The position numbers and the translations under genes were made by a program. From Methanocellales archaeon (GTDB taxonomy: Archaea; Halobacteriota; UBA148; JAUWXC01), in the NCBI GenBank assembly GCA_030616565.1, contig JAUWXC010000010.1, positions 1 through 10,915 of the forward strand: 10,915 bases of DNA. Direction: 5' to 3'. Positions 1 through 10,915 of this stretch are shown piece after piece. Positions within the stretch are counted from its first letter, which is position 1; every line of letters starts with the position of its first letter. The notes under the pieces were generated by a model. That model was given only the letters and a program-made list of their open reading frames with translations. It was not told where the DNA came from and searched no databases.

Positions 1-140
1 CATTCCACATCAAGCCCCATCATCGATCCTGCGCTCACAGTCCGAATACAAATGGTACTGTAAGCCCATTCATCCAAAAATAGATCGACCACCTGAGAGA
101 TTCCCAAATTTCCAAGTTTTACAAATCCTATTTTGACCAT
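1..140 (-). CDS. mtd: F420-dependent methylenetetrahydromethanopterin dehydrogenase, N-terminal fragment
   Basis: Only the first 46 codons lie in the window; the gene continues past the left edge. The translation begins MVKIGFVKLGNLGISQ, followed by DLFLDE and a hydrophobic strand. This matches the Mtd N-terminus, which in the family runs roughly KxGNxGxS...DxxLDERAD. Mtd reversibly reduces methenyl-H4MPT+ to methylene-H4MPT with F420H2 in the cytoplasm. The ATG at 140 sits 2 nt after the mer stop and is preceded by a strong Shine-Dalgarno GGAGGT (149-154) with 8 nt spacing. Position next to mer, which uses the product of Mtd and the same cofactor, supports the call. One oddity is DEWAYS where most family members have DERADR. 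The short fragment limits certainty, but the N-terminal match is specific. Confidence 0.85.
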   Translation of the reverse strand, partial: MVKIGFVKLGNLGISQVVDLFLDEWAYSTICIRTVSAGSMMGLDVE

Positions 141-142
141 GA

Positions 143-1105
143 TCAGATACCTCCTATGATCTCCTCGCCAATAATCTTGATCGAAGTTGGCACGTCCGGA
201 CCAATAGGGGAGCCCGCTACCACTTGCGTAACCCCCATATCAAATAGCTCCTTTACCCTCTGGATACAATGATCCGGCGTGCCGTAGATCGAAAATGCAT
301 CTGTCATTTGGTCTGTGACAGATGAAAACGCCGCACGAAAATCGCCTCTGGCAAGTGCATTTTTGACTGGCGCTACGTCTGCAGGGCTTATATCATGTCG
401 TTCTAGGACCTGGGGAGGCGATCCAGCTGCGATGAAGGCAACTGCCGGTGTTGCGGCCTTCTTTGCCTCTTCTGCGTCTTTGTCAACGGAGAAGCTGGCA
501 TAGGCAGCGATGTCAAAGTTCTTGGGAGCACTTTCCCTGACCTTTGGGATGGCATATTTAAAATCAGCGGGATGAGAGGCGTTGATTAAAACCCCGTTGC
601 CTATTGCTCCCGCCGTCTTGAGCATCACAGGACCCTGCGCCCCGATATAGATCGGAATGTCAGGACGTTGGAACGTCAGCTTTGCGTCCTTGACGACGAA
701 GAATTTTCCATTGAAGGTGACTCTATCTCCATTTAGGAGACGCCTTATAATCTCTACTGCTTCCTTCAACCTTGCCACGGGCTTATTTATCTGCAAACCC
801 AGCGAGCCCAATGTGGACCTGTCGCCGGCTCCAATGCCGAGCATAGCCCTTCCGTTCGATATCTCATCGATTGTGGCGATGGCAGAGGCGGTTAGAGCAG
901 GATGGATCTGGTATGTGTTGGTCACGCCGGGTCCAAGTTTCACTTGCGTGGTTCTTTTGGCGATCAGAGCCAGTGTTGCATAGACGCTCCGATTGTTATA
1001 GTGATCTGTGACCCATATCGCATCGAACCCATTATTTTCAGCTAAAATGCAATACTCTACTAGCGCATCCAATGGGATATCTGGTACGAATTCTATGCCG
1101 AACAC
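143..1105 (-). CDS. mer: F420-dependent 5,10-methylenetetrahydromethanopterin reductase
   Basis: Mer interconverts methylene-H4MPT and methyl-H4MPT with F420H2; it is a cytoplasmic TIM-barrel enzyme of the bacterial luciferase superfamily. Family hallmarks are visible in order: FGIEFVP at the start, VTDHYNNRSVY, KLGPGVTN, ASAIATIDEISNGRA, LGIGAGD, IYIGAQGP, KTAGAIGNGVLINAS, AFIAAGSPP and GVTQVVAGSPIGPD near the C-terminus. I prefer the GTG start at 1105. It is preceded by GGTGAT with the same GGTG-5 nt-start spacing seen at other genes here. It gives a 320-residue protein starting MFGIEFVP, like characterised Mer proteins (about 321 residues, MKFGIEFVP). In-frame ATGs at 1132 (ATGA overlap with fwdC) and 1126 would add nine or seven residues and cannot be excluded. 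The identity is secure. Its presence separates this genome from typical ANME-1, which lacks Mer. Confidence 0.96.
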   Translation of the reverse strand: MFGIEFVPDIPLDALVEYCILAENNGFDAIWVTDHYNNRSVYATLALIAKRTTQVKLGPGVTNTYQIHPALTASAIATIDEISNGRAMLGIGAGDRSTLGSLGLQINKPVARLKEAVEIIRRLLNGDRVTFNGKFFVVKDAKLTFQRPDIPIYIGAQGPVMLKTAGAIGNGVLINASHPADFKYAIPKVRESAPKNFDIAAYASFSVDKDAEEAKKAATPAVAFIAAGSPPQVLERHDISPADVAPVKNALARGDFRAAFSSVTDQMTDAFSIYGTPDHCIQRVKELFDMGVTQVVAGSPIGPDVPTSIKIIGEEIIGGI

Positions 1106-1108
1106 AAA

Positions 1109-1114
1109 ATCACC
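1109..1114 (-). promoter_or_regulatory. Shine-Dalgarno site supporting the GTG start of mer
   Basis: On the minus strand GGTGAT ends 3 nt before a GTG at 1105. This is a perfect match to part of the archaeal anti-SD complement GGAGGTGAT. GGTG lies 5 nt from the start, the same distance as at fwdC, hdrC and the fdhB-like gene. The competing ATGs at 1132 and 1126 have only a GAGG inside the fwdC end (1134-1137), 1 and 7 nt away. This favours the shorter Mer. Confidence 0.6.
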
Positions 1115-1128
1115 ATTTCTAATCATCG

Positions 1129-1896
1129 TCATTCCTCGGGTATGATATTAACGTAAAGTGTGCCAGATCCACCTCTGGTCAGATCGCCGGTAAATTTCTT
1201 CAGCTTGAGGGAATCTATGATTTCCGTCCCTTCGAACCTAAATGACGGTAGCATCTCCAGGACCTTCCCCTTTATCACTATCATACCATTCTTCATTTCA
1301 CCGCCTGGTAGCGTGACATCGCCCTCGATTATTATTTTTCCTCCAGACATGTTCAAACCAGGCAATAAACCTGCGCTGCCCTTGACGATTATTTCTCCGC
1401 CACCCATATGTCCACCCACATAGTCTCCGGCGTCCCCTTTCACCCTAATTACTCCACCCCTCATGCCTTTCTCTACACCCCAGTACCCGGCTCCGAGGTA
1501 GTTGCCGGCGTTACCCTCCACGACCAGCTCGCCGCCTCTCATCTCTCTACCTGCCCAAGCATCCGCATCACCTTTAACAATCACCTTTCCCCCTGACATC
1601 ATGGCACCGCAATGCATGTCGACGTTGCCGTTTATCGTTATCTCACCTGAAGTCATTCCCTCTCCTATTCTCTTTATCCTGGATGCGTCACCCTCGATTA
1701 CGATCTTCGCTCCTTCCTTGTCTACTCCTTCAACCTTGACATCGAAGAGAGAGCCCAACTTAACCTCTTTGTTTCCATGCCAGAGGGCAATCGATTCTAT
1801 TTCGCTTTTGCCTTTTCCAGCAAAGTTGTCTGGTTTGATCGCCTCCGCCTCTACGGGTACCTTGAAGGCCTTTTTAGGGGTTAGCGTAACTTGCAT
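1129..1896 (-). CDS. fwdC: Formylmethanofuran dehydrogenase subunit C
   Basis: FwdC is the structural beta-helix subunit of tungsten/molybdenum formylmethanofuran dehydrogenase. It is related to the C-terminal domain of glutamate synthase and packs FwdA against FwdBD. The 255-residue protein has a short N-terminal domain (about residues 1-75). It is followed by glycine-rich repeats such as GEITINGNVDMHCGAMMSGG, GKVIVKGDADAWAGREMRGG, GELVVEGNAGNYLGAGYWG, GEIIVKGSAGLLPGLNMSGG and GKIIIEGDVTLPGG. These are the GxxGxxxG-type strands of a right-handed parallel beta-helix. The ATG is 2 nt after the fwdA stop, with GGTG (1902-1905) 5 nt upstream. Gene order A-C is usual for Fwd operons. The length is slightly below the roughly 270 residues of methanogen FwdC. 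The gltB-domain alternative is rejected because the fwd neighbours fix the assignment. Confidence 0.95.
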   Translation of the reverse strand: MQVTLTPKKAFKVPVEAEAIKPDNFAGKGKSEIESIALWHGNKEVKLGSLFDVKVEGVDKEGAKIVIEGDASRIKRIGEGMTSGEITINGNVDMHCGAMMSGGKVIVKGDADAWAGREMRGGELVVEGNAGNYLGAGYWGVEKGMRGGVIRVKGDAGDYVGGHMGGGEIIVKGSAGLLPGLNMSGGKIIIEGDVTLPGGEMKNGMIVIKGKVLEMLPSFRFEGTEIIDSLKLKKFTGDLTRGGSGTLYVNIIPEE

Positions 1897-1898
1897 TT

Positions 1899-3575
1899 TT
1901 ACACCTTTGTTTTGATTTCGATCGGATGCGGGAGATATGCGTCCTGCACGGGATAATTCGCTAGGTTCACCGAGTAGTACTTCTCAAACTTCCCTGTCAG
2001 GTCACCGAGCATGTCCTTTGTAGGTTTTCCATCAAATTCTGGGTTAACCCAATACGTCCTTCCCTCTGGAACTGCAACGATCTCCCCATCCTTTACGACG
2101 ATCTCCCCGCCTTTTATCGTGTACTTTGCACGTAAAAGGGCGGACTGGATTTTCTTGGCTTCTTTCTCCTCTGGTGAAACATCATATATCGCAACATCGG
2201 CGTCTGCGCCTACACCGAGATGGCCCTTTCCATATCTATCGAGTCCAAGAATCCTTGCAGGTGCAGCCCTTGTCATTATTGCGATGTCGTTCCAGTCTAA
2301 CTCCCTCTCAATCGAGGGGAGGATCGCCCTCTTATTGATGGCTTTGTGAACGTTTGCCATGACCTCCTCCCTCTTCTGCCTGCTCATCAGCAGTGAAATG
2401 ACGATCGGATACGTAATAAATGGAGCACCGTTGGGGTGATCCGTTGTTAGCACTATCTTCCATGGGTCTTTTATGAGCAACGCCAGCTCCAGTCCAATCG
2501 CCCATTGAATCGTGTTGACAGCCACTTTTGACGAATATAAAAATGGAGTGATACCACCTCCTGTCTCGAGCTCTACGTCTAAGTTCGTCCATTTCCTCCC
2601 CGTTATCGTGTGCAGTCCATACTCAAGGGGACCATCCGCCGTCATCGTCGTCGTGTCCCCAAGCATCACCTGTCCCATGTCTATCGTCACATGCTTCTTC
2701 ACATTCACATACTTGGCAATCTCATCCACTTTCGATTCAAAGTCCTTCCAGCTGGACCCGCCATAGGAGTGGAACTGGACATGCGTGGCATGCATGACCT
2801 GGCGATTCTTGTTCGATCTGCCTTTTATAACATCAAATGATTTCAGCGTCGTTTCATAGTTTCCTGGATGCCCGAGATCATTGCAATGTATGTGGATGGA
2901 ATGAGGTAGGTTCAGCATCTCATTCGCCTCCGCAAGACTGCCGATGATATCCCTTGGTGTGACGTCAAAATTGGGTACGGAATCGTCTATGTTTACATTC
3001 TTTCCCCATCCCCATGCCTCATCTCCCCCCGGGTTCACTATTTTCACGCCATAGGCCTTTACGGCTTTTATCATCCAAGCAACGTATGCAGCCAGCTTTT
3101 TTGTTTCACCCGATTTAACATACTCCATGGTCATCCAATTGTTATCAAGCAAAGCAAGGATTGCGTTATCCAAAATAGGAGTATCGATTAGCTCCTCATG
3201 CGTATGACGTGCTAGTAAAGGTGGAGTCGCCGGCTCCATGACGAAGGTATATCCCATCTTTGCATATCTATAGCCAGTTGCATAGGTGTTTGGCACAGAA
3301 TATCCTGTGCATGCCCTAGTGAGTTTGCCTCTGGGTTCAGTTCCTTTCCTACCATCCTCGGGCCTGAGAAGTCTCCCGGCGTTTATCTTGCCGCCTGCTA
3401 TATGCGCATGTATGTCAACGCCCCCGGGCATTACCAACTTCCCATCGGCATCGATCACCTTGGGACTTTTTACCTTTGACACTATTTTATCATCCTTGAC
3501 GCAGATGTCCATTTTTTCCCCGCAGATTTCGTTGAGGGGATCGTATACGACGCCATTTTTGATCAACAGCTCCAT
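1899..3575 (-). CDS. fwdA: Formylmethanofuran dehydrogenase subunit A, amidohydrolase subunit
   Basis: FwdA is a binuclear-metal amidohydrolase that condenses formate, tunnelled from FwdBD, with methanofuran (or the reverse). The 558-residue protein shows the expected metal and catalytic set: H56 and H58 in VDIHAHI; K178 in VKIVNPGGDEAWGWG, the lysine carboxylated in Methanothermobacter FwdA; H228/H230 in HSIHIHCND; H262/H265 in HATHVQFH; and D379 in TTDHPNGAPF, equivalent to the catalytic Asp. The N- and C-terminal beta segments (LLIKNGVVYDP; GHLGVGADADVAIYD) are typical of the amidohydrolase superfamily. The ATG at 3575 lies 1 nt after the fwdB stop. A clear SD, GAGGTGA (3581-3587), precedes it, so the in-frame ATG at 3632 inside fwdB is rejected. 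All key residues are present and the enzyme should be active. Confidence 0.97.
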   Translation of the reverse strand: MELLIKNGVVYDPLNEICGEKMDICVKDDKIVSKVKSPKVIDADGKLVMPGGVDIHAHIAGGKINAGRLLRPEDGRKGTEPRGKLTRACTGYSVPNTYATGYRYAKMGYTFVMEPATPPLLARHTHEELIDTPILDNAILALLDNNWMTMEYVKSGETKKLAAYVAWMIKAVKAYGVKIVNPGGDEAWGWGKNVNIDDSVPNFDVTPRDIIGSLAEANEMLNLPHSIHIHCNDLGHPGNYETTLKSFDVIKGRSNKNRQVMHATHVQFHSYGGSSWKDFESKVDEIAKYVNVKKHVTIDMGQVMLGDTTTMTADGPLEYGLHTITGRKWTNLDVELETGGGITPFLYSSKVAVNTIQWAIGLELALLIKDPWKIVLTTDHPNGAPFITYPIVISLLMSRQKREEVMANVHKAINKRAILPSIERELDWNDIAIMTRAAPARILGLDRYGKGHLGVGADADVAIYDVSPEEKEAKKIQSALLRAKYTIKGGEIVVKDGEIVAVPEGRTYWVNPEFDGKPTKDMLGDLTGKFEKYYSVNLANYPVQDAYLPHPIEIKTKV

Positions 3576-3576
3576 G

Positions 3577-4866
3577 TTATTCACCTCTGCGCTCTCTGAC
3601 TTTGTCCAGTATCCTGCCCAAAATTTCCTCATCTGACAAGTGGTTTGGCTCTATGACTTTCCTCAGTCTTATCGGCACTTTATCCATCCTATATGCGGTG
3701 CCCTCAACCTCGACTCCAGCTATGGCAGACGGAATGACGACATCTGCTAACTCCATAGTAGGATTCGGATAGGGGTCTATTTGAATGAGAGGTATCTTTG
3801 CCAGATGCTCCACGGATTTACGTGGAAAATGCGCTGCGGGATCGGATGCAACTATCAGGGCAGAGTCACACTCTTTTCTATTTAAAATGTCCACTGCAGA
3901 CGTCTCCCCCGGATTGTACCAGGGCTGGCCCCGTGAGAAGTCGACTGCGAACGGAAATCCAGTTTCCCATGTGCACACCTGATTGAAGCCGGTTACGTTG
4001 TAGTGACCTCTCATGGGCATTATCACGAATTTCGTATGTGCGTTGAGCTCTCTTACCAGGGATATTGCGTTGACGACGTTGTTGTGCCTCCCCCTGGTGT
4101 GCGTTAAGCCCAGGCCGAAAAAGATGACGCCGAACCTAGCATCTTTCATCTTCTCCACGAGCTCAATTAATCTCTCTTTTGAGACCCCCCCTACGCAAGA
4201 GGGCACGATATCCTCTTCTCCAGCTAGGATCGCTCTAAGCGCAGACAGCACAGGGTAATCCTCTCCAGGAGCGACTTGGATGAACTCGTCCGCTACTTCC
4301 ACTGTCGTCGTTTTTCTGACATCAACCACCACTACCTTTTTCCCTTTTCTACCCTCTTCACTGAAAAACCCTCTCGGGAAGCTCGTGTACCTGCTCATAT
4401 GTCTAGGATGCGCCTCTGCTTGATTGGAACCCCAGTATATGATTAAATCCGCTCTGTTCTTTATTTGGCCGAGGGTGCAAGATGGTAGCCCGACGTTTTG
4501 GATGGCTAAAATGGATGGACCATGGCACACGGAGGCAGTGTTATCGATGACCGCGCCCATCTCCTCTGCAAGTTCGATTCCTTTCTTGTGCGCCTCACAG
4601 GTTGTAGAACTCCAGCCATATATTAATGGGCGAATCGAATTTACGAGAATCTCCGCCGTCTTGTCGACCGCATCCTCATATGTGGTCTCCTTCAGCTCGC
4701 CACTCTCTCGAATCATGGGTGTGGTAATTCTCTCGTGCCCCATCATCTTGCTCACACCCATCTCACATGCCTCTTTTACCTCGACGATCTTATTGTTCTC
4801 CACTTCGACGACGACATCGTCACACAAAGCACCGCAGAATGGGCACAGCACATCTGTGATGGTCAT
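3577..4866 (-). CDS. fwdB: Formylmethanofuran dehydrogenase subunit B, W/Mo-bis-MGD catalytic subunit
   Basis: FwdB reduces CO2 to formate at a molybdopterin-bound tungsten or molybdenum centre; it is a formate-dehydrogenase-like protein. The 429-residue sequence starts MTITDVLCPFCGALCDD. It provides CxxCxxxC (C8, C11, C15) and C34 for one [4Fe-4S] cluster. The metal ligand is C114 in NTASVCHGPSI, followed by H115 as in structurally known FwdB. R286 in MPMRGHYNVTG fits the conserved active-site arginine. Later molybdopterin-contact segments include IVASDPAAHFPR and DVVIPSAIAGVEVEGTAYR. The ligand is cysteine, not selenocysteine: the codon is not TGA. The ATG overlaps the fwdD stop (ATGA), with GGAGG (4874-4878) 7 nt upstream. 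Whether the metal is W or Mo cannot be told, so fmdB is an equally valid name. Confidence 0.96.
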   Translation of the reverse strand: MTITDVLCPFCGALCDDVVVEVENNKIVEVKEACEMGVSKMMGHERITTPMIRESGELKETTYEDAVDKTAEILVNSIRPLIYGWSSTTCEAHKKGIELAEEMGAVIDNTASVCHGPSILAIQNVGLPSCTLGQIKNRADLIIYWGSNQAEAHPRHMSRYTSFPRGFFSEEGRKGKKVVVVDVRKTTTVEVADEFIQVAPGEDYPVLSALRAILAGEEDIVPSCVGGVSKERLIELVEKMKDARFGVIFFGLGLTHTRGRHNNVVNAISLVRELNAHTKFVIMPMRGHYNVTGFNQVCTWETGFPFAVDFSRGQPWYNPGETSAVDILNRKECDSALIVASDPAAHFPRKSVEHLAKIPLIQIDPYPNPTMELADVVIPSAIAGVEVEGTAYRMDKVPIRLRKVIEPNHLSDEEILGRILDKVRERRGE

Positions 4867-5243
4867 TTAACATCCTCCATCAATTCTTTTATCGTTGGTA
4901 TGGATTCGTATGAAAGTCCCACCTCGGCATCCATCCCTTTGTAGTGTGGCATTCCACATCCGCCGGTATCCGGATCTATCACCCTATTTGCCCACGGCCC
5001 CATCGGGATGAACGCTATGCCCGCTGGATTCTCATTGTTGACCTTGGCCATCACCACAACTTCTCCAAAACGTGATTTCACCCGAACGTTACCCTCATCC
5101 CTGATACCCAGCTCGGCCACATCTCTTTCGTTCAGTTCGCAGACGGCTGCTGCCTTGAGATATTCGTCTGACATCTTGTTTTCCAGATGGATGCCCTGCT
5201 CGACGAGTCTTCCTGTAATCAATTTTACATCGATTTTTTTCAT
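4863..5243 (-). CDS. fwdD: Formylmethanofuran dehydrogenase subunit D, molybdopterin dinucleotide-binding domain
   Basis: FwdD is the small molydopterin-dinucleotide-binding subunit that completes the FwdB active site, like the C-terminal domain of other bis-MGD oxidoreductases. The 126-residue protein shows LITGRLVEQGIHLENKMS, then NERDVAELGIRDEGNVRVKS, GEVVVMAKV, and GIAFIPMGPWANRVIDPDTG followed by GCGMPHYKG. The last stretch is highly typical of FwdD/FmdD. The start is the second ATG of ATG-TTC-ATG (5243): GGAG lies 6 nt before it but directly abuts the first ATG (5249). An open frame runs upstream to 5450 but lies inside hdrB and has no family similarity. The gene follows hdrB by 11 nt, the largest clear gap in the operon and the junction between the Hdr and Fwd modules. 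Confidence 0.94.
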   Translation of the reverse strand: MKKIDVKLITGRLVEQGIHLENKMSDEYLKAAAVCELNERDVAELGIRDEGNVRVKSRFGEVVVMAKVNNENPAGIAFIPMGPWANRVIDPDTGGCGMPHYKGMDAEVGLSYESIPTIKELMEDVK

Positions 5244-5249
5244 GAACAT

Positions 5250-5254
5250 CTCCC
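5250..5254 (-). promoter_or_regulatory. Shine-Dalgarno site that sets the fwdD start
   Basis: The minus strand reads GGGAG directly after the hdrB stop codon, 6 nt before the ATG at 5243. The alternative ATG at 5249 touches the SD and would leave no spacing. The long upstream open frame (to 5450) is therefore not part of fwdD. Confidence 0.55.
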
Positions 5255-6115
5255 TCACTCTATGCATATGGATTCTAACAATTTCATCGGAGCCACCATG
5301 TTTTTGTCTAATCCAAGCTCTTTTACTCCCAGTCCCAGCGCAAGACCCAATAGTTGGGTAAAATACAGGGCAGGCAGGTCTATGGTGATACCATATCTGG
5401 ACTCGATGTTCGACTGCTGAAAGTCCAGCATGGTATGACACAGGGGACATGTTACGACTATGCAGTTCGAGCCGCCCTCTTTTGCCCCGTCTATGATTTT
5501 TTTCGCCATCTCCAGCGCAAAATCCTCCTTATTTGCCAGCAAGCCACCGCCGCAACAGCTCACTTTATGGGAATATGGCAGACACTCAGCACCTGTCGCC
5601 TTGATCAGGTCATCCAGCGATTGTGGATCCTCTGGATCGTCGAATTTAGCGATCTCGGATGGTCTGACGATCAGACATCCATAATATGGCACCGCGTTCA
5701 CCCCTTCTAACGGGGCCTTCACACCTTTCGATATTCTCTCCAGACCGACATCATTTACGATAATATCCAAAAGATGTCGTACCCCAACTCTTCCCTGGTA
5801 TTGTCCATCTATCGTCTCGTTTATCTTCTTTCTGAATTTCTCATCTTCTTTTACCATTTTATTCGCTTTGGAGAGTTTGTGGAAGCAAACACTGCACGGC
5901 GCTACTATGTCGAGCCCCTCTTTTTCAGCGAGCGCCAAGTTCCTTGCCGATAATGGGATGGATAGGGAATCCCTCGCTTCTACAGCGCCGCAACAATTCC
6001 AGTCGTCCAACTCGATCAGCTCTATGCCCAGTTTTCTGCAAACCGCCCTCGTGGACATATCGTACTCCACAGCGCTTCCGTGAAGATAACAACCAGGGTA
6101 ATATGCGAACTTCAT
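5255..6115 (-). CDS. hdrB: CoB-CoM heterodisulfide reductase subunit B
   Basis: HdrB is the catalytic subunit that reduces (or forms) the CoM-S-S-CoB heterodisulfide at two non-cubane [4Fe-4S] clusters bound by CCG domains. The 286-residue protein has both CCG motifs intact. The first uses C9, C41-C42-G43, C74 and C77 (FAYYPGC, WNCCGAVEA, APCSVCF). The second uses C147, C187-C188-G189, C223 and C226 (YYGCLIVRP, VSCCGGG, VTCPLCHTML). No transmembrane segments are evident, consistent with soluble HdrABC. The ATG overlaps the hdrC stop (ATGA) and a weak GAGG (6126-6129) lies upstream. The order hdrC-hdrB is the usual pair in methanogens. Because many CCG proteins act on other substrates, heterodisulfide specificity is inferred from the two full motifs and from the Hdr/Fwd context. 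Confidence 0.94.
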   Translation of the reverse strand: MKFAYYPGCYLHGSAVEYDMSTRAVCRKLGIELIELDDWNCCGAVEARDSLSIPLSARNLALAEKEGLDIVAPCSVCFHKLSKANKMVKEDEKFRKKINETIDGQYQGRVGVRHLLDIIVNDVGLERISKGVKAPLEGVNAVPYYGCLIVRPSEIAKFDDPEDPQSLDDLIKATGAECLPYSHKVSCCGGGLLANKEDFALEMAKKIIDGAKEGGSNCIVVTCPLCHTMLDFQQSNIESRYGITIDLPALYFTQLLGLALGLGVKELGLDKNMVAPMKLLESICIE

Positions 6116-6693
6116 TTTTTATTCGCCTCGACAATCTTGAATATTCGCCCTATCTGTTTCATACCCTTAATCTTCTGCGGTAACAATCTGAGCTTCCCTT
6201 TTCTAAACATGACAAATCCATCAGGTGCGCTGGATAGCAGTCCAGTTGCACCTTTGCTCAAGAGCACAAGATGTACGAAAAATTTTATCTCAAAAAGTCT
6301 GCCGTATTTTCTTATCAGGTCGTTGAAGACCCCGTCAAGACGCGGCTTCAGACTTTTTATCTTTATATTGCCCTCTTTGCCCTCCCTCTCCGCTATATTT
6401 GTTATGGCATGCAGCACTTCTGTTATTCCCACGCCTTGCGGACAGTGCTCATGACACGCATAGCACCTGGAGCAAAGCCAGATAATGTCGCTGGATAGTA
6501 CTTCTTTCTTCATACCAAGGACTGCCATTCGCATGATCTTGAGTGGGTCATACCGCTCGTCAATCTCTCTCACCGGACAGCTCGATGTGCATGTTCCGCA
6601 CTGGTAACACATGAGAATGTTCTCGCCACCTGCTTCTTTTATCTCGTCCACGAATCTGGGATCGGTATCCGTCAGCCTTATCGCTTCGGTCAT
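6112..6693 (-). CDS. hdrC: CoB-CoM heterodisulfide reductase subunit C
   Basis: HdrC is an iron-sulfur electron carrier linking HdrA to HdrB. The 193-residue protein has two complete [4Fe-4S] motifs: C29, C32, C35, C39 (CYQCGTCTSSCP) and C74, C77, C80, C84 (CSRCYACHEHCP). An alpha-helical C-terminal half (about 100-193) follows. The ATG at 6693 overlaps the preceding stop (ATGA) and has GAGGTG at 6699-6704 with 5 nt spacing, so the longer open frame up to 6840, which lies in the upstream gene, is rejected. The hydrophobic stretch FFVHLVLLSKGATGLL (139-154) is short and looks like a buried helix rather than a membrane segment. It is a separate soluble HdrC, not fused to a HdrE-like membrane subunit. 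Confidence 0.94.
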   Translation of the reverse strand: MTEAIRLTDTDPRFVDEIKEAGGENILMCYQCGTCTSSCPVREIDERYDPLKIMRMAVLGMKKEVLSSDIIWLCSRCYACHEHCPQGVGITEVLHAITNIAEREGKEGNIKIKSLKPRLDGVFNDLIRKYGRLFEIKFFVHLVLLSKGATGLLSSAPDGFVMFRKGKLRLLPQKIKGMKQIGRIFKIVEANKK

Positions 6694-7859
6694 TTTTGCA
6701 CCTCTTTCAGTTCGGTCTCGAAAAAGGGCGGCTTTTTCATATCGATCCCTGGAACATAATCCAGTTTTTTCTGTACTCTCTCTGTAAAGCGCATATGAAT
6801 CATGGTCAGGGGAATGCCTGCAGGGCACACATCTTCGCACCTACCGCACCCGATACAGGAATCCATCAGGTGGAGCAATCTTATCATGTTGAACATGCGT
6901 ATTCGGTGCACCTCGCTCTGAAATTCCGTCATCGTGCACTTTGCATCATCTCCACATGGACAGACGGGGCAGACCTTTTTGCATGCACCGCACCCGGTGC
7001 AACCGGCAAAGGCATTGATATAGTACTCCAATCTCTCCGAATCAGACAGTTTGTTTATGGGCTCAAACAACTTTTCATGCCACTCATGAGCGAGCTTCTT
7101 CATGGCCTGGTCTATTTTCTCTCTGATCTCTATGCTCTTATCAGAGGCGGGTTCACACTCCACGTAGCCGGCATCAACGGCGTTTTTGAATATCTCCCTC
7201 CCCTTCTCGGTCAACACCTCCACAAATGTAGCCTTCCTGCCACGTGGAACGCCCCAGTTTCCGCAAGCCAAATCCGTCATTTTTGGAACGTTTATATCGC
7301 AGTATTTGCAGGCATCCCTTCTGCCATATCCCTGCCTCTCCAGCTCATCTATCTTGATGCTTTTTTCACCCTCGCTGGTTTTTAGAATCAATTTGCCTTT
7401 CGAGATTTCCTCGCTCAAAACGGCGTTGGGATCTAGGTTATAGACCTCTTTGACCATCTTACGTGCCTTCACAGGATGCATGGTGCCGGCACAGTTTAGA
7501 CCTATCATGTAGACATTATCCAGATTGACCTGGTTTCTTTTAGCCCGTTCTATGACTCCTCTGGCATCGCATGGCTTTGCAGGAAGGGCGATTCGCACAT
7601 CTGAATCGACGTATTTGGCCAGATTGATCGCCGTCATGTGAAGGGCACCAGCACAGTCGAGGACCTCCTTCGGATCGCTTGTTACCGTGGGTATCCCTTT
7701 GAAAACATCGTGTTTTTTCAGCACCAGCACGCGCTCGACAACCCCCTTATCAAGAGCGGCTGCCAATGCAGCGGAAACGAATCCACCCGAGCTGCCTTTT
7801 TCTCTTGTTTTCTCATCAGTAGCCCATGCCAGGTAGCATTTTCCAGTGCCTATGTTCAT
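6690..7859 (-). CDS. F420-binding FdhB/FrhB-family oxidoreductase with C-terminal 2[4Fe-4S] domain
   Basis: This is the flavin- and F420-binding subunit family shared by F420-reducing hydrogenase (FrhB), formate dehydrogenase (FdhB) and F420H2 dehydrogenase (FpoF). The N-terminal part shows [11 protein letters not shown] (20-30), [10 protein letters not shown] (92-101), [10 protein letters not shown] (120-129), and [12 protein letters not shown] (179-190) with LACGNWG (197-203). These are the usual FAD, Fe-S and F420 region motifs. A C-terminal extension from about residue 283 has ferredoxin motifs C287/C290/C293/C297 and C335/C338/C341/C345, with extra cysteines C300, C302 and C308. This layout and the 389-residue length resemble methanogen FdhB more than FrhB (about 280-290). 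No FdhA or hydrogenase subunit is adjacent. Its place between mvhD and hdrC suggests it passes F420H2 electrons via MvhD to HdrA, as proposed for F420-dependent Hdr complexes. The start overlaps the mvhD stop, with GGTGAT at 7863-7868. Confidence 0.9.
6699..6704 (-). promoter_or_regulatory. Shine-Dalgarno site that sets the hdrC start
   Basis: GAGGTG on the minus strand lies 5 nt before the ATG at 6693. It fixes the start of HdrC against a longer in-frame reading that would begin at 6840 inside the preceding gene. Confidence 0.55.
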
Positions 7860-8275
7860 TCTATCACCGGCTTCAATGGACTCGGTCCGAGTTTCTTAAC
7901 TTGTTCAACCACTTCTTTGACCACGTTGGCGAATTTTTCACCTTCTGTAGCCGAGATCCATTCCAATCTAAGCCTCTCCTTCTCCAATCCAAGTTCATTC
8001 ATCATCTCGCTCAAAATCTCGAACCTGTTCTGAGTTTTGTAATTTCCATTGATATAATGGCAGTCTCCGATGTGACAACCCGTGACCAGAACACCATCCG
8101 TACCTTCCATAAAGCTCATTAGTACGAATATGGGGTCTATACGACCAGAGCACATGACCTTGATGATCCGTATATTTGGGGGGTACTGCATTCTTGAAAC
8201 GCCGGCCATGTCAGCCCCAGCGTAGGAACACCAGTTACAGCAAAACACCACGATTTTTGGGACAAATTCCTTCAC
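7856..8275 (-). CDS. mvhD: F420-non-reducing hydrogenase / heterodisulfide reductase iron-sulfur subunit D
   Basis: MvhD is the small [2Fe-2S] protein that docks on HdrA and feeds electrons from a hydrogenase, formate dehydrogenase or F420 module to the bifurcating flavin. The 139-residue protein has the family signature [15 protein letters not shown] (11-25), then [20 protein letters not shown], and [15 protein letters not shown]. The cysteines are C12, C13, C16, C42, C67 and C72. I chose the GTG at 8275. It overlaps the hdrA stop (GTGA), has GGTGG 4 nt upstream, and gives about ten residues before FCC as in known MvhD. An ATG at 8293 is possible but lacks an SD. Its presence without MvhA/MvhG means another donor must be used; the adjacent F420 protein is the natural candidate. 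Confidence 0.93.
7863..7868 (-). promoter_or_regulatory. Shine-Dalgarno site of the fdhB-like gene
   Basis: GGTGAT on the minus strand lies within the last codons of mvhD, with GGTG 5 nt before the ATG at 7859. It is the clearest example of the operon's start pattern and a reference for judging the mer and mvhD starts. Confidence 0.5.
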
Positions 8276-10915
8276 TCCACCACCAGCCTGCATACGTTCT
8301 TTATCTGGGATGCAATCTGCTTGTTCTGATAATGTCTCTGCTCCAGAGCGCCAGTCGGACAAGCGGCTACGCAGGTACCACATCCCTTGCACACGGCTGT
8401 TATTACCTCTGTGACTCCATCCACCATTCTGATGGCCCCATACGGACACATGGTCATACAAATTCCGCAGTTCACACACGCTTCAGGGTTGATGACAGCA
8501 GTGATACCTTCGCTCTTGATCATACCCACTCCCATGGGAATCGATGCCCTAGACGCTGCACCGACGGCCTGGGTTATCGTGTCTACTACTCCCTTTGGCG
8601 AATGGGCACAGCCGCAGAGATATATGCCATCGGTTGCGAAGTCCAGCGGTCTCAGTTTGACGTGTGCTTCGTGGAAGAAATTGCCCGCCCCAATCGGGAC
8701 CTTGAGCATTTTCTGTAGCGCTCCTGCGCCTTTTGCCCCCTCTGTCGCCGTCGTCAGTACAACGAGGTCCGGCTCGATTTCGAGATCCGTTCTGAGCAGA
8801 CCATCGTACACCTTGACAATCAATTTTCCGCCCTCTTCAAAAACAAGTGGTTTCTTATCCTTGGAGAACCTGATAAATTTAACACCGTTCGCCCTGACAT
8901 CATTGTAATATTCCTCTCCTTTCTTTCCAACAGTCCTGATATCCCTGTGGAGAATGAAGACGTTTGCATCTGGATACATCTCCTTGATATATTTTGCATT
9001 CTTGATCGATGTACCGCAGCCGAATCTGCAGCAGTAGGTCTTCCCTTCCTCCTCTCTGGCACCGACGCAATTGATTATCACGACATTTTTCAGCTCCTTT
9101 AATGTGCCTTCTTTTAACATGCGTTCGAGCTGGAGTTGAGTGACCACATTATCATATTCTCCGTAGCCGTAATAACCGGTGGCATCTATCTCCTGCGAAC
9201 CCGTCGCTACGATGATTGTTGAAATATTAAACACATCTTCCGAGTCCTTCTTGGAGATAGTCACCTCGAAGTTTCCGATGTATCCCTTTATGTCCTTGAT
9301 TTCGACCCCTGTGTAGATTTCAATGTTTTTATGCTCATATGCCGCCCTTATTTTTGGAGCGATGGCCTCCTCCGCCGGAGTCTCGGTCGGGAAAAGCTTG
9401 TATAGATTCCGCAGCATTCCTCCCAATTCCTGCTCGCGTTCGACCAGTTTTATCTTAAATCCCATATTTGCCAGCTCCAGGGCAGCTGTCATCCCGGCGA
9501 TTCCCCCGCCTATCACAAGGCACTCGGGTCCGACGGAAAGTTCGCCCTCCTCTTCGGCTTCAAGAAGACGTGCCCTTGCGACCCCCATCCTGAGCAGGTC
9601 CTTGGCTTTTTCCGTCGCCTCTTCTGGTTCGTTCATGTGCACCCACGAGCACTGGTCCCTGATATTCACAAACTCGAACAAATATGGGTTTAATCCAACT
9701 TCTCTACATGTGTCTCTGAATAATCCTTCATGCGTCCTGGGAGAACATGCAGCGACCACGACCCTGTTGAGATCATATTTTTCGATTGCTGCTTTGATTC
9801 TACCCCGGCAGTCATCAGAACACGTGAATATATCCTCGTTTACAAAGGTGACATTTGGGAGTGTTTTCGCATATTCCACGACAGCGGGGACACCAACAAT
9901 CCTTCCGATATTGACGCCGCACCTGCAGACGAAGACGCCAATTCTGGGCTCATCCGTGGGTTTAACTTCTTTTTCCTCTGGCAGTTCAACCTCTTCTATC
10001 TCCTCGCCCCTGGCCTCCACGATGGGCATTATGGCTTTTGCAGCAGCCCCGGATGCCTGGGTTACCGAGTCTGGAATGTCCTTTGGTCCCTGTGCGCACC
10101 CAGCAAGGTATATTCCTTCTGCATCAGTCTCTATTGGTGCCAGTGGCAAGTTTTTCTCTTGGAAAAAGCCATTTTCATCGAGTTTAACTCCCAGTATCTT
10201 TGCAAGTTCCTTGTTCGTATCGGTAGGCACGCCCGCACAAGCAAGGACCAGCATATTCGCTTCTAACCCCCCTACCTCCCCGGTATCAAGATTTTCGTAC
10301 CTGATTGTCAAATCGCCTGTTTCTGGATTTTCAGATACTTTACTCGGTCTGCCCCTGACGTATTTTACGCCGATTTGTTCTTCAGCCCTTCTGTAATATT
10401 CTTCAAATCCCTTCCCGTAGGCTCTCATGTCCATGTAGAATATGTGCGTTTCAATGTCAGGCGTATGCTCCTTTGTTATTATCGCCTCTTTTGTCGCGTA
10501 CATACAACAAACCCTTGAACAGTACGGGCGTTCTTTCGTCCTGGAGCCCACACATTGTATCCATGCAACCTTCTTGGGCTCCTTACCATCGGAGGGACGA
10601 ACGATATGCCCCCCCGTAGGTCCTGCTGCGTTCATGAGCCTTTCGTACTGCAGAGCTGTGACGACGTTTTGTAAACACCGTAACCATACGTGCCCTTATC
10701 TGGCACCAATTCGCTGTATCCGGTCGCCACTATAATAGTCCCTACATCGAGCTCGATTTCCTCTGGTTTCTGGTATAAATCGATTGCATCAGGTTCGCAG
10801 ATCACTTTACAGTTTCCGCAGGCAAAACAATGCTCTCTGTCTATGGTGTAAACTAAGGGGGACGCTTGTGGAAATGGAATATATATGTTCCCCCTCAGCT
10901 TGAGTCCCACTTCAA
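8272..10915 (-). CDS. hdrA: Heterodisulfide reductase subunit A, tandem double-module form; 5' end missing, one frameshift
   Basis: HdrA is the FAD-containing, electron-bifurcating core of soluble HdrABC. About 880 residues lie in the window and the start is beyond the right edge; the open GTG at 10910 is mid-domain (…[15 protein letters not shown]). Visible in order are: an inserted ferredoxin motif (C-x2-C-x2-C-x3-[13 protein letters not shown]); the end of HdrA module 1 (ATGYS, IQCVGSR with [15 protein letters not shown]); an acidic linker (about 9950-10010); and a second HdrA module. Module 2 starts with [11 protein letters not shown] and TCSDDC, then [16 protein letters not shown], and an FAD Rossmann motif [14 protein letters not shown] (about 9476-9525). 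It continues with ATGS, INCVGAR with YCCRFGC, and GIYLCGCA. The C-terminus carries two [4Fe-4S] motifs ([24 protein letters not shown]). The reading frame breaks at 10667-10670, and the two frames join perfectly by family sequence. The identity is certain; the break is either an assembly error or a real mutation. Confidence 0.93.
8280..8284 (-). promoter_or_regulatory. Shine-Dalgarno-like site supporting the GTG start of mvhD
   Basis: GGTGG at the end of hdrA lies 4 nt before GTG 8275, which overlaps the hdrA TGA. The alternative ATG at 8293 has no purine-rich SD match ahead of it. Confidence 0.45.
8533..9216 (-). repeat. HdrA internal duplication, copy 2 (module 2 thioredoxin-reductase-like part)
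   Basis: This is the counterpart of copy 1: [81 protein letters not shown]. It lacks the inserted ferredoxin ahead of ATG and is instead followed by the C-terminal 2[4Fe-4S] domain. The two copies have diverged well beyond nucleotide identity, so this is an old duplication or fusion and not an assembly repeat. Confidence 0.8.
10012..10736 (-). repeat. HdrA internal duplication, copy 1 (module 1 thioredoxin-reductase-like part)
   Basis: The protein-level repeat unit runs from IIVATGYS through [38 protein letters not shown] and [20 protein letters not shown] to AAAKAIMPI. It aligns motif by motif with copy 2 at 8533-9216. This copy is preceded by an inserted ferredoxin domain and contains the frameshift. 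Confidence 0.8.
10666..10673 (-). other. Frameshift in hdrA at a run of four A
   Basis: On the minus strand TAC-AAAA-CGTCGTC breaks the frame. Upstream of it the protein reads TYGYGVYK. Staying in frame then gives non-family residues and a TGA within about a dozen codons. Adding one A restores [20 protein letters not shown], which is classic HdrA and matches [17 protein letters not shown] in module 2 of the same protein. This is a one-base deletion in a homopolymer, most easily explained as a sequencing or consensus error, though a real mutation is possible. Confidence 0.88.

Follow-up and report, generated by a model that had tools for sequence, protein, structure and literature searches.

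What does a heterodisulfide reductase (Hdr) do in a lineage that shows no sign of the heterodisulfide? The question is raised by a stretch of 10,915 bases (the window), the entire contig C35 of the Methanocellales archaeon genome G000 (782,578 bases in 129 contigs, 63% complete). The genes for HdrABC, the electron-transfer subunit MvhD and the F420 oxidoreductase subunit FdhB are tied here by gene order to those for the formyl-methanofuran enzyme (Fwd) and for Mer and Mtd. The cluster probably encodes an F420-linked type II HdrABC-MvhD-FdhB module, bifurcating or confurcating, that serves the Wood-Ljungdahl methyl branch of an archaeon lacking methyl-coenzyme M reductase (Mcr), the partner of HdrB being something other than CoM-S-S-CoB, the heterodisulfide of coenzyme M (CoM) and coenzyme B (CoB). 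On this explanation, the module would be co-produced with Mer, Mtd and the Fwd core (in the nearest relative also with Ftr), which make up most of the archaeal form of that branch. No account of this operon was found in the available text of open-licence PMC articles.

Organization and conservation of the gene cluster

The gene order on the minus strand is hdrA-mvhD-fdhB-hdrC-hdrB-fwdD-fwdB-fwdA-fwdC-mer-mtd (Table 1), and all eleven genes are co-directional. Six junctions are overlaps of 4 bases (hdrA/mvhD, mvhD/fdhB, fdhB/hdrC, hdrC/hdrB, fwdD/fwdB, and fwdC/mer), and the four others are gaps of 11 bases (hdrB/fwdD) and then 1, 2, and 2 bases, as measured from the start codons chosen in this analysis. 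Pfam and NCBIfam name ten of the genes (mer through NCBIfam only), and mtd was recognized from its sequence. FwdA, FwdB, FwdC, and Mer pass the NCBIfam equivalog cut-offs. HdrA (791 bits, cut-off 1100), FdhB (101 bits, cut-off 269), and MvhD (144 bits, cut-off 215 of the VhuD model) match their families below the cut-off, as do HdrC, HdrB, and FwdD (Table 1). The frame of hdrA is broken in an A-rich stretch between about 10,670 and 10,632, and the 5′ end of the gene is also missing. An Rfam scan of the window gave no match.

An earlier note on this DNA had proposed that one operon joins a complete, F420-linked HdrABC-MvhD module to Fwd, Mer, and Mtd. All eleven genes are indeed in place, tightly packed on the same strand, and the proposed operon is supported. 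The module is not complete inside the window, where hdrA is truncated and its frame broken; an intact hdrA, of 1006 residues, is found in a second genome.

This second genome (G002, isolate Yes46-10, locus L059) belongs to the same genus, is a separate genome and is 94% complete. Its gene order is identical to that of the window, with protein identities of 89–96%, and dN/dS between the two is 0.07–0.17 in all ten genes compared, including the main frame of hdrA. The broken hdrA frame could suggest an assembly chimera or a decaying locus. However, as the order recurs in a second, separate genome and every gene compared is under strong purifying selection, both chimera and chance are dismissed, and the probability left to such an origin is negligible. 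In G002 the cluster continues into mtd and then ftr, with position 12,962 as the end of ftr. Farther along this 38 kb contig, on the opposite strand (about 21.9–31.9 kb), are the genes for CdhE, CdhD, CdhC, CdhB, CdhA, and acetate-CoA ligase, which places the carbon monoxide dehydrogenase/acetyl-CoA synthase (CODH/ACS) and the ligase about 9–19 kb beyond the hdr-fwd cluster. Mch is on a separate contig. CdhA–E, acetate-CoA ligase, Mch, Mtd, and Ftr of G002 (nine of nine) all score above an NCBIfam cut-off.

Four genomes of another family in the same order (G005, G007, G008, and G010; group g3) have a rearranged cluster, hdrA-mvhD-fdhB-fwdDBAC-hdrC-hdrB, followed by ftr and mch. The contig of G007 begins within hdrA, and that of G010 within fdhB, so that any hdrA and mvhD of G010 would lie outside its contig. 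The linkage of hdr and fwd survives the rearrangement at protein identities of about 51–81%, and hdr, fdhB, and fwd remain together while mer is on another contig in all four genomes. The exact gene order put forward in the earlier note recurs in G002, and in rearranged form in g3; linkage of mer and mtd to the cluster is seen in two genomes (G000 and G002). The fdhB gene adjoins mvhD in the window, G002, G005, G007, and G008; it also overlaps fwdD in G008 and adjoins it in the other g3 loci. The hdrA of G005, G007, and G008 is divided into two genes (429 residues where complete, and up to 598 residues). Upstream of this split pair, G005 and G008 carry a second hdrA (fused, 1004 residues in locus L025 of G008) with mvhD and an HdrD-like CCG gene (L025 2573-7139; L026 15802-19999), giving two Hdr flavoprotein sets per locus.

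Table 1. Genes of the window, listed in the order of transcription
Gene	Position	Strand	Remarks
hdrA, N-terminal part	10632..10913	-	5′ end lost at contig end; frame broken; part of inserted ferredoxin domain; matches intact G002 HdrA up to the break
hdrA, main frame, 787 residues	8272..10635	-	Rest of first thioredoxin-reductase-like half and complete second half
mvhD (FlpD), electron-transfer subunit	7856..8275	-	PF02662 192 bits; 5odc_D 202 bits
fdhB/frhB-like F420 oxidoreductase subunit, C-terminal 2[4Fe-4S]	6690..7859	-	PF04422/PF04432; 7bkb_E 309 bits; 8rja_E 48 bits
hdrC, two CX2CX2CX3C motifs	6112..6693	-	TIGR03290 90 bits (cut-off 160)
hdrB, two CCG domains, divergent clade	5255..6115	-	PF02754; TIGR03288 232 bits (cut-off 345)
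fwdD	4863..5243	-	PF01568; NF042908 119 bits (cut-off 175)
fwdB, catalytic subunit	3577..4866	-	TIGR03129 639 bits; C114 aligns with Cys116 of 8rja_B
fwdA	1899..3575	-	TIGR03121 832 bits; 8rja_A 730 bits
fwdC	1129..1896	-	TIGR03122 284 bits
mer, F420-dependent methylene-tetrahydromethanopterin (H4MPT) reductase	143..1132	-	TIGR03555 442 bits; NF002619 459 bits
mtd, first 46 codons	1..140	-	Contig ends; full-length G002 gene passes NF002162

Architecture of the Hdr subunits and relationships of the Fwd core

The domains of HdrA were mapped by aligning the G002 protein to 5odc_A and to the one-flavin HdrA of a Bathyarchaeota locus (L118). The first half contains a CSIC motif (equivalent to Cys197) and the inserted 2[4Fe-4S] domain, and lacks the N-terminal domain. 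The second half contains the N-terminal Fe-S domain, the flavin domain, and the C-terminal 2[4Fe-4S] domain, and lacks the inserted ferredoxin. Both halves keep the Glu and Lys residues equivalent to E356 and K409, which are named as key bifurcation residues at the HdrA flavin site (PMC12054007). We read this arrangement of complementary halves as the type II (two-flavin) architecture described in the same article.

HdrC keeps eight cysteines, which correspond to two [4Fe-4S] motifs. HdrB keeps ten cysteines (C9, C41, C42, C74, C77, C147, C187, C188, C223, and C226) of the CCG pattern. The best match of FdhB among solved structures is chain E of 7bkb, the FdhB of the Methanospirillum hungatei Hdr-Fdh-Fmd complex, and the functions of the subunits would follow from such solved homologs. 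The closest FdhB outside the order (56%), among 60 genomes searched (the window's own, 10 others of the order, and 49 of the phylum), is that of G042. It is encoded after mvhD and before a molybdopterin-oxidoreductase-like protein, as read by eye (L028 12877-16052), on a 16 kb contig without an Fwd match; the FwdB of G042 is identical to a named Methanophagales FwdB.

Both FwdB and FwdA of the window are closest in the Protein Data Bank to 8rja, the F420-reducing Fwd of Ethanoperedens, and the residue of that structure aligned with FwdB C114 is a tungsten ligand (PMC11493965). In a FwdB tree of 98 rows, the window, G002, and the four g3 genomes form one clade (support 100/100). L062 is next to it (99/86), beside a clade that contains Methanophagales (98/92). 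Across a branch with support of 100/98 are the Hdr-linked FwdBs of G018 and G027 (probably Methanocella arvoryzae and M. paludicola), G046, G011, Bathyarchaeota, and three Asgard-type genomes, together with the FwdBs of G006, G009, and Met12 (Ca. Serpentinarchaeum, G004), a published member of the order; several of these are long branches. In view of this split, the Hdr-Fwd linkage of the window lineage would most simply be an independent assembly. A caution comes from L078, in the neighboring Methanophagales clade, which has a divergent hdrA-mvhD pair near fwd.

The neighborhoods of 80 named FwdB loci were read up to 10 kb on each side, and as many contigs are short the counts are lower bounds. 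At least eight loci have hdrA, hdrB, hdrC, or mvhD near fwd: three of this order, and L078, L115, L118, L126, and L134. Only an HdrD-like match is near fwd in L081, L082, and L123. In L118 (881-14858), a polyferredoxin-hdrC-hdrB-hdrA-mvhD cluster is divergent from fwdDBAC-mch and is followed by FdhA-like (read by eye) and FdhB-like genes.

An open reading frame with seven to eight ferredoxin motifs (FwdF-like) is present in the clusters of G018, G027, G046, G011, L118, and Met12. In the window, G002, and the g3 loci, however, no reading frame besides HdrA has more than two such motifs, and no two-motif ferredoxin of FwdG size was found. The FwdF-like protein of Met12 has no match at E ≤ 1e-10 in G000–G003 or G005–G010, Hdr-free genomes included. 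This polyferredoxin is missing too from L078, L115, L126, and L134, where hdr lies near fwd. No fdhA was found in the window or between hdrA and ftr in G002, where each reading frame belongs to a different gene, the rest of that genome not being searched. The cluster has no non-catalytic molybdopterin oxidoreductase (Molybdop), its sole protein of this family being FwdB, with the Cys kept. MetV and MetF are not found in the window, and Mer is present instead.

Host metabolism and the proposed electron path

Completeness reaches 94% or more in six of the 11 genomes of the order. McrA was found in none of the 11 (29 of the 60 overall), and neither was ComE above its cut-off (20 of the 60 overall); no search was made for CoB synthesis. 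The best ComE score in the order is about 40 bits, and non-methanogen control genomes give below-cut-off matches too. ComA was found in none of the 11 either; because the same search misses M. acetivorans, this result is uninformative alone and was left uncounted, and ComE was used instead. Mer is present in all 11 genomes, CdhC and FwdB in nine each, and HdrB in six, the same six that have FdhB. Met12, G006, and G009 have FwdB, of the other clade, and no HdrB match; HdrA was not searched genome-wide, and the FwdB of G006 sits on a 6.5 kb contig, the upstream neighborhood being outside it.

Two of the four genomes of the window's genus, G001 (82% complete) and G003 (86%, a single contig of 987,146 bases), gave no match to FwdB, HdrB, FdhB, or CdhC under the search thresholds, and keep a Mer that is 63% identical. 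The CO2-fixing pathway may therefore be lost in part of the genus. G002 encodes two hydrogenases side by side, an uptake enzyme of group-1 type that has a cytochrome b561-like subunit and an enzyme of group-4 type (L168 7022-14100), the groups being assigned from motifs and neighbors. The group-4-type enzyme has NuoH-like and DUF1959 proteins and a 49-kDa-like large subunit with RVCGIC and DPCIAC motifs. The hydrogenase small subunit is in two overlapping reading frames that meet at about 7321, the first without a Pfam match.

The earlier note had supposed that a single complex, as in Methanospirillum, couples F420H2 and formyl-methanofuran with CoM-S-S-CoB, and that in the reverse direction it would oxidize methyl groups or alkanes. 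The subunits are homologous to those of the solved Hdr-Fdh-Fwd complexes, and hdr-fwd clusters occur in methanogens (PMC12054007). However, as neither McrA nor above-cut-off ComE was found in any of the 11 genomes, CoM-S-S-CoB is an unlikely partner of HdrB, and neither the heterodisulfide coupling nor its reversal is supported. The CODH/ACS and acetate-CoA ligase of G002 and the HdrB score below the CoB-CoM cut-off also speak against this proposal, which we consider very improbable.

In the F420-linked type II module that we prefer, FdhB would exchange hydride with F420, and electrons would pass from its Fe-S clusters to MvhD and on to HdrA, entering at its C-terminal ferredoxin domain and flavin. 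From the first half of HdrA, the low-potential branch would leave by way of the inserted ferredoxin domain and reach Fwd, either directly or via free ferredoxin. The second branch would run from HdrA to HdrC and HdrB, whose partner may be a protein thiol, another disulfide, or a membrane carrier. The two directions of electron flow between F420 and ferredoxin are given equal weight. FdhB is the only F420-reductase-type match at E ≤ 1e-20 in G000 and G002, and a lean toward F420 reduction, with FdhB as the sole F420 reductase, was dropped because the same search misses the FrhB reported in Met12 (PMC11176372).

Several points weigh against this module and its non-CoM partner. Other F420 reductases may have been missed by the FdhB search. 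An MtrA-like gene is present in nine of the 11 genomes (for example at G000:C27:4374-4868) and leaves room for CoM-like chemistry, its scores of about 192–207 bits being lower than the 229–293 bits of the best matches in most Mcr-bearing relatives. The window's own genome is 63% complete and the others of the order are incomplete as well, so that the gene absences are likely, not certain. Finally, the CoB-CoM HdrB model TIGR03288 (cut-off 345 bits) gives 201–232 bits for all four HdrBs of the order that were tested and 416–474 bits for all five from other Hdr-Fwd clusters (G018, G027, G046, G011, and the Bathyarchaeota L118). Its cut-off was rejected as a test of substrate: the HdrB of G015, a genome with an MCR match, scores 205 bits and fails (the gene is not Fwd-linked in the stretch fetched), and that of Bathyarchaeota passes. 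For the same reason, the score marks the clade of HdrB and not its substrate.

The operon may instead do no more than co-regulate one pathway, Hdr-FdhB and Fwd having no contact and Fwd using free ferredoxin, and the chances of this are only slightly short of even. FwdF, which is required for large Fwd supercomplexes (PMC11493965), is absent from the cluster, and the FwdF-like and FwdG-size ferredoxins are missing as described above; ANME-1 is also without FwdFG (PMC9012536). On the other hand, hdr has been kept with fwd through the rearrangement in g3 while mer departs. A role of FdhB as the direct partner of Fwd, like that of FwdI in Ethanoperedens, with Hdr as a bystander, is improbable. 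The relationship of FwdB and FwdA to 8rja and the contacts of fdhB with fwdD in g3 would agree with such a role, but FdhB matches the M. hungatei FdhB far better than chain E of 8rja (Table 1), and its gene adjoins mvhD in five genomes.

An archaeal chain like that of Sporomusa, in which a periplasmic hydrogenase oxidizes H2 and, with cytochrome b, passes electrons from the membrane to HdrBC and, with ferredoxin, F420H2 is made for Mer and Mtd, appears unlikely as well, though less so. The HdrA of S. ovata has two thioredoxin-reductase-like domains and a C-terminal part without the inserted ferredoxin, like the second half here (PMC9430772). Moreover, G002 encodes small and large NiFe subunits and the cytochrome b561-like protein, and G000 has two similar NiFe matches on one contig (C117). 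However, neither MetVF nor a membrane anchor gene is in the cluster, and Met12, which is Hdr-free, has HyaAB too (PMC11176372).

A bolder form of the bifurcating reading can be offered only tentatively and is itself somewhat doubtful. The cluster would then be an F420-driven, bifurcating, CO2-fixing machine that has departed from methanogenesis, sending low-potential electrons to Fwd, with a partner of HdrB other than CoM-S-S-CoB, so as to energize the methyl branch of an archaeal acetogen, and assembled independently of the Methanocella-type and Bathyarchaeota clusters. The locus suggests that an Hdr complex has been re-used for other carbon metabolism, and it raises a concrete question, namely the substrate of HdrB when CoM-S-S-CoB is absent.

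Comparison with known systems

The cluster resembles those for Hdr-Fdh-Fmd/Fwd of Methanospirillum and Hdr-Fwd of Methanocella in that HdrABC, MvhD, and the Fwd core are encoded together, and in the FdhB match to 7bkb. In comparison, the HdrA here is of type II (fused, and a split pair in g3), genes for FdhA and for FwdF-like and FwdG-like proteins are not in the window cluster, HdrB and FwdB are from other clades, and no Mcr was found in the order.

The type II HdrA-HdrBC-MvhD-FdhB-Molybdop clusters of methane- and alkane-metabolizing archaea (PMC12054007, PMC9012536) share the two-flavin HdrA with complementary halves, HdrBC, MvhD, and FdhB. In the window, Fwd genes come in place of the non-catalytic Molybdop. 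The fused HdrA3/4 proteins show the same complementarity with the N-domain half first (PMC9012536), whereas the CSIC half is first in the HdrA of the window lineage.

The Hdr-type methylene-tetrahydrofolate (THF) reductase of Sporomusa and Moorella (HdrCBA-MvhD-MetVF) also ties HdrABC-MvhD to the Wood-Ljungdahl methyl branch in non-methanogens. In Sporomusa ovata, HdrCBA-MvhD is part of a membrane chain through which electrons from H2 reach methylene-THF reductase (PMC9430772), and this chain is a near functional analogue. In the window, however, MetVF is replaced by the F420-dependent Mer and Mtd with FdhB, and the carrier is H4MPT, not folate. The F420-coupled Fwd of Ca. Ethanoperedens (FwdI, 8rja) likewise combines an F420 module with an Fwd that lacks FwdF. 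The F420 subunit of the window differs in being of the FdhB type, with mvhD and hdrABC alongside, and 8rja keeps FwdG.

Another comparison is with Met12, which belongs to the same order and has the acetyl-CoA pathway and no Mcr. PMC11176372 describes it as devoid of Mcr, of every Hdr, and of the synthesis of CoM and CoB, and proposes acetogenesis that does not rely on electron bifurcation. The lineage of the window thus carries Hdr but is related to an acetogen that has been published as lacking Mcr. Met12 does without Hdr, and its Fwd is of another kind, with ferredoxins that are FwdF-like and of FwdG size; the two lineages offer a natural comparison. If the bifurcating reading is true, the order includes a bifurcating lineage, although its published member was described as one that does without bifurcation.

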